DNA from: Dipodascopsis uninucleata var. uninucleata
Taxonomy: Eukaryota; Ascomycota; Lipomycetes; Lipomycetales; Lipomycetaceae
Reading direction: 5' to 3'
DNA: 64,000 nt
Assembly (NCBI GenBank): GCA_030568195.1
Contig: JAJLTO010000006.1
Location: forward strand, 124,001-188,000
The position numbers and the translations under genes were made by a program. Positions 59,192 to 62,437 of the stretch are shown here, in pieces (positions within the stretch are counted from its first letter, which is position 1; every line of letters begins with the position of its first letter). A model generated the notes under the pieces. It was given only the letters and a program-made list of their open reading frames with translations. It did no database searches and had not been told where the DNA came from.

Positions 59192-62100
59192 TTAGACAGT
59201 CAACTTCTCTTTGAAGAGTTTGTCAAGTGTAGAAATTGCCTCCTCCAGATTCTTAATTTCACTACCAACACCTTGAACTGTAGATCCCTTGCCCCCGCTC
59301 TTACCGCCCACCAATTTGCAAACCATAGTTCCAAGTTCCTGCGCCGAAAGTCCTGTGTCGACTGTAATAGCATCAGAAACATAACCACCATGCGCAATTT
59401 TTTCATCATTTCCATCAGAAGCGAAAAGGTAAACTGCCTTTGAGGGCTGCTTAGCCTTCACATAGCTAACAGCTTCACTGATCGCCTTTGCATTTGCGGA
59501 AATGCCAGGTACCTTAGCAACTAAGAATGGGAGCCTCTCTGTATCTTCTGATGTAAAAAACTCGGTGACCATATCTATAGCCTTTTTCGACTCTTGCTTC
59601 TGTCGTGCCTTACCTTCATCAACAATCATCTTCTGAATTTTAGCAAACTTTTCCTTAAGCTCTGCTTTCTTGACAACTGAGATGGATGCCTGATTAAGAT
59701 AATAACCTATGGTCTTCGCTTCAGCCTCCTTGGCCGCGCCCAACGGCATCTTCTCGAGATTATCCAACTTCTGAAACCATTCATCAGCCAGTCTTTGGAC
59801 AGCATATGCTTCATTTCCGGTAACGGCAACTATTCGACGAATACCCTTAGCAATACCACTTTCCTCAATAATGATGAGTTCCTTGATATCCCCCGTAGAT
59901 TTAACATGAGTACCACCGCAGAATTCAACGCTAAATTCACACCAACTGTTGTTCTTCAAGTCCTCCAATAAAGACTCAACTGGAACACCAACCGAAACAA
60001 CTCGTACAGGATCAGGGTATGTCTCACCGAAAACTGCACGTACTCCAGCGATCTCACGAGCAATCGAGAGAGGAACGTCTTTAGCATACACAGTGAGATC
60101 TTTGCGGATCTGAGCAGTTGCGATGTCTTCTGCACGGGAAACTTCGTTCATGGACATTCCGCTCTTGTGCGAGAAATCAAATCTAAGTCTGTCTGGAGCA
60201 ACTAAAGATCCCTTCTGATCAACTCCATCGCCAAGGACTGTACGCAAAGCATAATTCAAAACATGAGTTCCCGTATGGTTATTTCTAATGGGCCACCTTC
60301 GGAGCTCATCATACTCGGCAAGGATAGAATCGCCAACCTTGAGAGAACCATACTTCAAGAAACCAGTATGGAAGACGTAGCCACCATACGATTGAACATT
60401 TTCAACAGCAAACTCCGCTTTTCCGTCAATAATCATCTTACCGGTATCATACTCCTGGCCACCTTGCTCAGCATAGAAGTTTGTTCTGTCAAGTATGATA
60501 CCAGCCTCCTTCTCGTCTTCAGTAAAATCAATGGCATCGACAAACTTCTTGTCGACATAGATAGCCTTAACTACTGCAGTTATATCGCCTAAATTATGCT
60601 TGTAATGATCATCGGTCTTAGGGAGGCCTTCTTGTTCGAGATATCCAAGATCGTGGACATCTAACTTCAGCATCTCGCCATCCTTTATAGACTTCTTGCC
60701 TCCCTTGCTTGCCTCCTTAGACTTCATCTGAGCTTCTTCAAAGCCTTCCTCGTCAATGGTAAGGCCATTTTCTTCCGCCATCAAACGAGTCAAATCAACT
60801 GGAAAGCCATAAGTGTCATATAGTCGCCAAACATCTCTTCCATTCAGGACACTTTTACCCTCAGCACGAGTCTGCTCGGCATATTGCTCAAATAATTTCT
60901 CGCCACGATCTAAGGTGCGAGAGAACGACTCTTCCTCCTCGTTCAAGATCTCAAAAACATCATCAGTCTTCTTAGATAGTTCTGGGAAAATATCCTCCAT
61001 TTGCTCAATTAAAACAGGAGCCAGCCTAGAGAAGAAGTTACCGATAGGAACATTGAATTTCTTTCTAACATAACGCGCACCTCGGCGAAGAATTCGTCGC
61101 AAAACATATCCTCTTCCTTCATTGTTTGGAACACCACCATCGCTAAGAGCGAATGTCAGAGTTCGAACGTGATCAGCAATGATACGATATGCTGTGTCGA
61201 TACCGTCGACGTCCTCATCACCAAACTTTCCAGAGTAAGGCCGCGCTCCGGTCAACTCCTGAATTTTTTCAAACAGAGGAGTAAAACAGTCTGTGTCATA
61301 ATTTGACATCTTATCCTGTAGCACTGAGACCAGTCTTTCAAAACCCATACCAGTATCAACATGTTTCGCGGGCAAACTTCGTAGAGTTCCATCAGATTCA
61401 CGGTTGAATTGGATAAAAACATTGTTCCAGATCTCAAGAACGTTTGGATCGTCCATGTTGACAAGATGAGCAGCATTACGACCTCCAATACGGTCATAGT
61501 GTATCTCACTGCAAGGACCACATGGACCTTGGTCACCCATCTCCCAAAAGTTGTCCTTTAAGTTTCCTGGTAATATATGGTCATCAGGAAGACCAATAGC
61601 TCTCCAGAGTTCCTTGGTCTCCAAATCGGGCTCTAAACCACTTTTTTCATCGCCACCAAAGTAAGTGGCATATAATCTGCTAGGATCAAGACCGTATACT
61701 ACTGTTAATAGTTCCCAAGACCATGCAACTGCTTCCTTTTTAAAATAGTCACCGAATGACCAGTTACCCAGCATCTCAAAGAAGGTATGATGATAACTCT
61801 AAACCAGAACCTCGTTAGTACAGACGCATATTGTTTTATAAATCATGACGGCAATTAGAAATGTACTAACATCCTTTCCGACATCCTCCAGATCTACATT
61901 TTAATTGAAAAATCAGTAAGTCAACTTTACTCAGAATAAAAAAAGCGATTAAAATTTTGGTTACCATTATGCTTGCCACCTGCACGAATACACTATACAC
62001 AATCAAGTCAGTACTATAATGAAGTTAGATCTATTAACAGATAAACTGCACGCACCTTCTGCGAATTAACTGCTCTCTTTAGCTTTGCGAAATCGCTAGC

Positions 62101-62437
62101 AGGATCTACTTTTCCTAAAAAGATGGACTTGTATTGGTTCATGCGTAAAACCGCAGTTAGTATGATTACTGAACGCGACCATATGTCATCAACACAATAA
62201 GAAAAAAGTGCTACATATCTGCATTGGCGAAAAGTAATGTCGGATCATCATAAGGAATAACAGATGAGCTCGGAACGAAGGTATGTCCGCGCTTGGTTAC
62301 GAAATAATCTAAGAATGTGGAGCGCACCTAGATTTAGCGGAATCCATCCGCGTTAGTAGTCTGCGAGGCCAACACACTTTCTGAGCGCTAAGCCAACAAC
62401 CAACCTTTGATGCGGGCCAATCTGACGGATTTGGCAT
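59192..62437 (-). CDS. ALA1: Alanyl-tRNA synthetase
   Basis: Charges tRNA-Ala; one gene usually serves cytosol and mitochondria in yeasts. Six exons on minus: 62437-62405, 62327-62219, 62144-62056, 61992-61965, 61893-61871, 61798-59192; 962 residues (958 in S. cerevisiae). All five introns lie in the first 95 codons, and exons 4 and 5 are 28 and 23 nt. Four introns are GT-AG; intron 2 (62145-62218) is AT-AC. Class II core: [82 protein letters not shown]. Editing domain zinc ligands: [12 protein letters not shown] and [12 protein letters not shown]-terminal C-Ala domain ends [14 protein letters not shown]. The frame continues 42 codons above the ATG; see the separate entry. Confidence 0.95.
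62145..62218 (-). other. ALA1: AT-AC intron of ALA1
   Basis: 74-nt intron that starts ATATGT and ends TTTTAC, with TACTAAC ending 11 nt before the 3' end. Cutting here gives GCA G|GC ATG AAC, i.e. FANA-G-MNQ, a near-invariant AlaRS motif. No GT-AG pair in the interval restores it. The branch site and ATATGT donor look like a U2-type intron with G1 changed to A and the final G to C, not a U12 intron (ATATCC donor). Confidence 0.85.

Follow-up and report, generated by a model that had tools for sequence, protein, structure and literature searches.

A very probable U2-type AT-AC intron in the alanyl-tRNA synthetase gene of Dipodascopsis uninucleata

The second intron of ALA1, the gene for alanyl-tRNA synthetase (AlaRS) in Dipodascopsis uninucleata, has AT at its start and AC at its end, an observation first made in a first-pass annotation of the window (the whole stretch of 64,000 nucleotides analysed here) and confirmed by our analysis. 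We consider it very probable that the sole ALA1 of the species here carries a genuine U2-type AT-AC intron, that it would be removed by the major spliceosome, that the enzyme would require its removal, and that its ends are shared with relatives. The cut, its motifs, the failure of GT-AG cuts and the non-G ends in relatives come from sequence, and from these we infer the splicing, the spliceosome and the history of the intron. A conserved AT-AC intron in the single gene for an essential enzyme would, if true, put to a natural test both the rule that the two end bases of an intron must be compatible and the notion of AT-AC ends getting trapped.

ALA1 and its exon-intron structure

The gene lies on the minus strand of the window and is laid out as follows, the exons being those of the spliced translation.

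59192..62437, minus strand: ALA1 (alanyl-tRNA synthetase), 6 exons, ATG at 62437, stop at 59192, 962 amino acids
62437-62405, 62327-62219 and 62144-62056, minus strand: exons 1-3
61992-61965, 61893-61871 and 61798-59192, minus strand: exons 4-6
62328..62404, minus strand: intron 1, 77 nt, GTTGGT..TACTAAC..TAG
62145..62218, minus strand: intron 2, 74 nt, AT-AC, phase 1 (codon G|GC)
61993..62055, minus strand: intron 3, 63 nt, GTGCGT..TACTGAC..TAG
61894..61964, minus strand: intron 4, 71 nt, GTAACC..TACTGAT..TAG
61799..61870, minus strand: intron 5, 72 nt, GTTAGT..TACTAAC..TAG

When spliced in this way, the 962-residue frame is intact and aligns over its full length to yeast AlaRS, and the N-terminal 200 residues align to PDB chains named cytoplasmic alanine-tRNA ligase. 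One ALA1-like locus was found in the 16.2-Mb assembly using the exon-6 protein as the query, and the alanyl-tRNA synthetase gene is of an essential kind. The annotation had placed intron 2 among otherwise GT-AG introns, which is true within ALA1, where introns 1, 3, 4 and 5 are all of this type. The branch motif lies 24, 14 and 15 nt before the intron end in GT-AG introns 1, 3 and 5, respectively.

Two further features of the gene can be seen in the same layout. The distance from branch site to intron end differs inside ALA1, with 24 nt in intron 1 (62357-62328) and 11 nt in intron 2 (62162-62145), and two of the exons are very short, exon 5 (61893-61871, minus strand) being a 23-nt micro-exon and exon 4 having 28 nt.

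The join that restores the conserved protein

Three signals can be placed on intron 2 from the sequence.

62213..62218, minus strand: 5' splice site ATATGT, differing from GTATGT by its initial A; this A is also implied by FANA-D-I in the public model P0001
62156..62162, minus strand: branch site TACTAAC, 11 nt before the end of intron 2
62145..62146, minus strand: 3' splice site AC, the last six bases being TTTTAC (62150-62145)

The annotation had the intron at 62218-62145 with ATATGT at its start, TTTTAC at its end and TACTAAC 11 nt before the end, all of which is exact, and it had pointed out that reading through from FANA hits a stop, which is found at GCA GAT ATG TAG. Its further statement that no other cut restores FANAGMNQYKS also holds. 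When we enumerated joins of exon 2 to exon 3, with the donor anywhere between 100 nt before and 60 nt after 62218 and an intron of at least 30 nt ending within exon 3, the cut at 62218-62145 was unique among 5573 in-frame, stop-free joins. Within the enumerated range, the sole join giving the conserved protein is thus one with AT and AC ends, by which a U2-type AT-AC intron is recognised. None of the eleven GT-AG joins among those listed keeps the conserved peptide.

The peptide itself is found throughout the family: of the 170 AlaRS relatives listed (one listing being the best 120 of 7997), 164 carry NAGMNQ[FY]K, the six without it being P0001, P0005, P0009, P0070, P0074 and P0114, and the region around FANAGMNQYKS aligns to PDB cytoplasmic AlaRS chains. 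The joint chance of finding TATGT just inside the fixed 5' cut and TACTAAC near the fixed 3' cut is about 1.5e-6, a post hoc figure based on window frequencies, with a 13-position tolerance for TACTAAC, and computed when both motifs had already been seen.

The public gene model and a GT-AG alternative

The best-scoring AlaRS relative of ALA1 is a public protein labelled as D. uninucleata (P0001), and it can be rebuilt letter for letter from the DNA of the window by means of two GT-AG cuts, 62214-62096 and 61930-61797. The second of these joins 61931 to 61796 and skips the 23-nt exon 5. The first implies a different intron in the region considered here.

62096..62214, minus strand: GT-AG intron implied by P0001, judged false; GTAGCA..GCTAG, 119 nt, 17 residues removed

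One could take P0001 at face value, with GT-AG 62214-62096 as the true intron and an enzyme that does without the 17 residues. The cut is in frame, free of stops and encoded exactly by the public model, and the genome behind that model was annotated after transcriptome sequencing if P0001 stems from PMC11024372, section 2.2 of which describes this order of work for its genomes (including those of D. tothii CBS 759.85 and of D. uninucleata Phaff 50-6, a strain listed under project PRJNA1069695). We nevertheless consider this reading very unlikely. The cut deletes the NAGMNQ[FY]K stretch that is conserved in 164 of 170 listed relatives and aligns to PDB AlaRS chains, its AG lies 60 nt past TACTAAC compared to 24, 14 and 15 nt in introns 1, 3 and 5, and P0001 has a second evident error in the skipped exon 5. 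P0001 is a model in which the AT-AC intron is evaded at the cost of 17 residues. If P0001 and the D. tothii protein P0009 are models from PMC11024372, transcripts failed to steer the pipeline to the AT-AC join, and we take this miss as a limit of the pipeline because P0001 also skips exon 5.

The junction FANA-D-I of P0001 requires an A at intron position 1, which bears on another way of explaining the ends, namely that the intron is an ordinary GT-AG one with sequencing or assembly errors at its two ends, or that the gene has decayed. The window by itself is one assembly, which leaves room for error; however, two errors falling precisely on both end bases would be improbable, P0001 seemingly comes from another assembly (its contig has 1,231,699 bases, compared to 1,228,313 for the contig of the window) and needs the same A, and the Lipomyces starkeyi model described below likewise requires it. 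Decay is opposed by an intact frame of 962 residues at a single locus. We give errors or decay next to no credence.

Spliceosome assignment

Both sites of the proposed U2-type AT-AC intron resemble those of ordinary yeast introns. The 5' site has a single mismatch to GTATGT and a G at +5, compared to four mismatches out of eight to the U12 consensus RTATCCTT. At the branch site, 11 nt from the intron end, stands a perfect U2-type TACTAAC. For the U12 branch consensus TTCCTTRAC, the best match within the last 45 nt is TTCAGTAAT, which has three mismatches, lies 20 nt from the end and is off the TACTAAC site. U6 (93 bits) and U2 (152 bits) snRNAs were found in the genome. The annotation had proposed searching for U12-type snRNAs as well, and none of the four (U11, U12, U4atac and U6atac) was found in the genome, a result that is uncalibrated, as the control genomes were also without a match.

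Intron 2 could in principle be of the U12 type and be removed by a minor spliceosome. It is in phase 1 and has its branch site near the end, both of which are common in U12-type introns, and AT-AC ends are reported to be common among them too. Against this stand the four mismatches in eight to RTATCCTT, the lack of a close TTCCTTRAC at the right place, the failure to find U11, U12, U4atac and U6atac (uncalibrated, with control genomes also lacking a match), and a passage of PMC2846911 in which U12 splicing is absent from Ascomycota; we regard removal by a minor spliceosome as extremely improbable. The U2-type reading given in the annotation, for an intron in a single-copy gene, is supported by the U2-like 5' site and branch site, but the part of it by which the variant arose here, through change of G1 and the last G, is not supported by comparison with relatives.

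Conservation of the unusual ends in relatives

A comparison with sister species, also proposed in the annotation, was made at the protein level and revealed bases other than G at both intron ends in L. starkeyi and at the last position in D. tothii; conservation is read here from the protein letters of gene models, for which C and A at the last base are inseparable. In the L. starkeyi model P0005 (LIPSTDRAFT_102287, strain NRRL Y-11557), FANA-DMWSPKICTDFLVR-MNQYK takes the place of the FANA-G-MNQYK seen in other Lipomyces. The model reads FANADMWSPKICTDFLVRMNQYK, which back-translates, after the codon base G, to A-Y-A-T-G-T-G-G, and the retained letters force the first base of the intron to be A and the last to be C or A. 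With GT-AG ends, both places would instead have glycine codons. A similar picture emerges for D. tothii, a member of the Lipomycetaceae that bears the NCBI name Neoaidaea tothii. Its model P0009 reads TDYCSR-MNQYK, which leaves only C or A for the last intron base, the first base being outside the retained letters.

In the retained stretches of P0005 and P0009, TACTRAY is possible solely at 10 nt before the intron end, and random stop-free intron ends permit ACTRAY at exactly 10 nt with a probability of 0.005 (0.5% of trials). Seven other Lipomycetaceae (P0002-P0004, P0006-P0008 and P0010) have the correct GMNQYK and are silent on their introns. Judged from the gene-model letters, the AT-AC ends are probably older than D. 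uninucleata, and the unusual ends probably date to the common ancestor of Lipomyces, Dipodascopsis and the genus of D. tothii. A practical fault also emerges, in that the ALA1 models of D. uninucleata, L. starkeyi and D. tothii drop or add residues at intron 2.

Three more AlaRS sequences, P0074 (Sugiyamaella lignohabitans, Trichomonascaceae), P0070 and P0114 (metagenome AlaRS), start exactly at MNQYK. As a weak lead, this suggests an unmodelled intron at the position of ALA1 intron 2 in other yeasts.

Origin of the AT-AC ends

The annotation had regarded the intron as a natural double variant arisen in this species, that is, a lineage-private paired change in D. uninucleata from G to A at the first base and from G to C at the last. 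A change of this kind is workable, given that a yeast intron altered to AT-AC at its two ends is still spliced (reported in PMC6726248), but at this position L. starkeyi lacks G at either end and D. tothii lacks it at the last base, which puts any paired change further back, and a private origin seems to us very unlikely.

Another history, which we put forward tentatively and as clearly less likely than not, is that intron 2 is a fossil U12-type AT-AC intron in a yeast lineage that lost the minor spliceosome. Substitutions confined to +5 and +6 would have turned its ATATCC into ATATGT, after which the ends would have stayed trapped across Lipomyces and Dipodascopsis, perhaps at a position shared with the Trichomonascaceae (Sugiyamaella). 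A route from U12 to U2 that leads from ATATCC to ATATGT would need no change of an end base. We counted the phase 1 position of intron 2 as fitting a U12 ancestry, phase 1 being common in U12-type introns. A route of the same kind is described in section 16 of PMC2831892, where an AT-AC U12 intron first acquires G at +5, then either A at +4 or T at +6, turns U2-type, and is then trapped with its AT-AC ends, both of which would need to change jointly.

Mechanism and known AT-AC systems

For a U2-type AT-AC intron removed by the major spliceosome, the reading we prefer, U1 and then U6 would pair with ATATGT, in which G at +5 and T at +6 are as in GTATGT, TACTAAC would be paired by U2, and branching would go ahead. 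Exon ligation would take place with A1 facing the final C instead of the usual G-G contact; the scheme of U1, U6 and U2 pairing and of the G-G contact is itself well established. The AT-AC ends may persist, as neither end would be able to revert singly without loss. In the spliceosomes of both yeast and human, the two end bases of an intron interact with each other in the post-ligation active site (PMC6461851). According to PMC6726248, AT-AC comes second only to GT-AG in junction efficiency when tried in a yeast intron, and it is used by some U2 introns, although by none of the standard S. cerevisiae introns under normal circumstances.

The U2-type AT-AC introns of animal sodium channels (SCN4A intron 21) are like ALA1 intron 2 in having AT-AC ends with a G at +5. 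The original studies of SCN4A intron 21, as cited in PMC2831892 and PMC6726248, are said to have described it as a U2-type AT-AC intron. Section 16 of PMC2831892 has the sodium-channel AT-AC introns as long-lived and handled by the major spliceosome. ALA1 intron 2 differs from SCN4A in belonging to a fungus of the budding-yeast subphylum whose minor-spliceosome RNAs were not found (in an uncalibrated search), and in having a perfect yeast TACTAAC and lying in the gene of a housekeeping enzyme.

For S. cerevisiae, an intron with an AT-AC double change was reportedly studied by Parker & Siliciano in 1993. AT-AC is also used in SUT635 and RPL30 of this yeast (PMC6726248). As far as these sources describe them, the S. 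cerevisiae cases are like ALA1 intron 2 in that an initial A combined with a final C is tolerated by the U2 spliceosome of yeast, but they are engineered, alternative or a non-standard protointron, whereas in ALA1 the AT-AC join is the only one found that makes the enzyme.

Fungal AT-AC introns are tallied under "Other AT-AC introns" in PMC2846911, and make up 0.019% of fungal introns in Table 1 of PMC7072748. As presented there, these tallies concern introns of the same kind as ALA1 intron 2, but they are bulk counts in which no gene is followed, whereas ALA1 intron 2 is traced into two other genera through gene-model letters. A point against rarity in yeasts is the annotation of Meyerozyma guilliermondii, with about 6.67% of major non-canonical sites, a value that takes GC-AG and AT-AC together (PMC7072748). 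Our literature searches, which left most subscription journals outside their coverage, found nothing on AT-AC introns in Lipomyces, on an AT-AC intron in a fungal alanyl-tRNA synthetase, or on a U12-type intron in any alanyl-tRNA synthetase. For AT-AC splicing in Saccharomycotina the sole match was to strings naming KS-AT-ACP domains, and among the matches listed for hemiascomycetous introns none had AT-AC together with Yarrowia.

Genome-wide search for further AT-AC introns

We scanned the genome for AT-AC motif sets, adding both strands and using reversed patterns as controls. Counting nested ends of single sites, as all of these counts do, ATATGT..TACTAAC..AC occurs 32 times compared to 38 for its control, ATATGT..TACTRAY..AC 90 times compared to 95, and ATA[ACG]GT..TACTAAC..AC 30 times compared to 55; the same search for GTATGT..TACTAAC..AG gives 76 against 21. 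The AT-AC motifs thus show no genome-wide excess, and provide no second case that would support a class. The pattern search is blunt, and a handful of other AT-AC introns could hide in it.

Candidate introns lying 150 nt or more from a locus end were also scored for coding potential on both sides; with L033-L062 left out, there were 109 of them, representing 88 site pairs. ALA1 intron 2 ranked 8th of the 109 (score 3.4), the coding score being a weak one, and the seven above it were checked singly. Four of them (L030, L080, L079 and L119) were rejected as AT-AC introns, being stretches of a multiple of three that stay open and hence plain coding sequence. Another, L016 (C5, a DUF2423 protein), was rejected as a second AT-AC case, as removing a 232-nt GTTGGT..GATAG intron instead yields the public D. 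uninucleata protein P0171. At two other loci an AT-AC-like motif set lies between open frames: L112 (C13:120164-120213), where there are 4 in-frame GT-AG alternatives, and L075 (C3:389085-389146), where there are 14.
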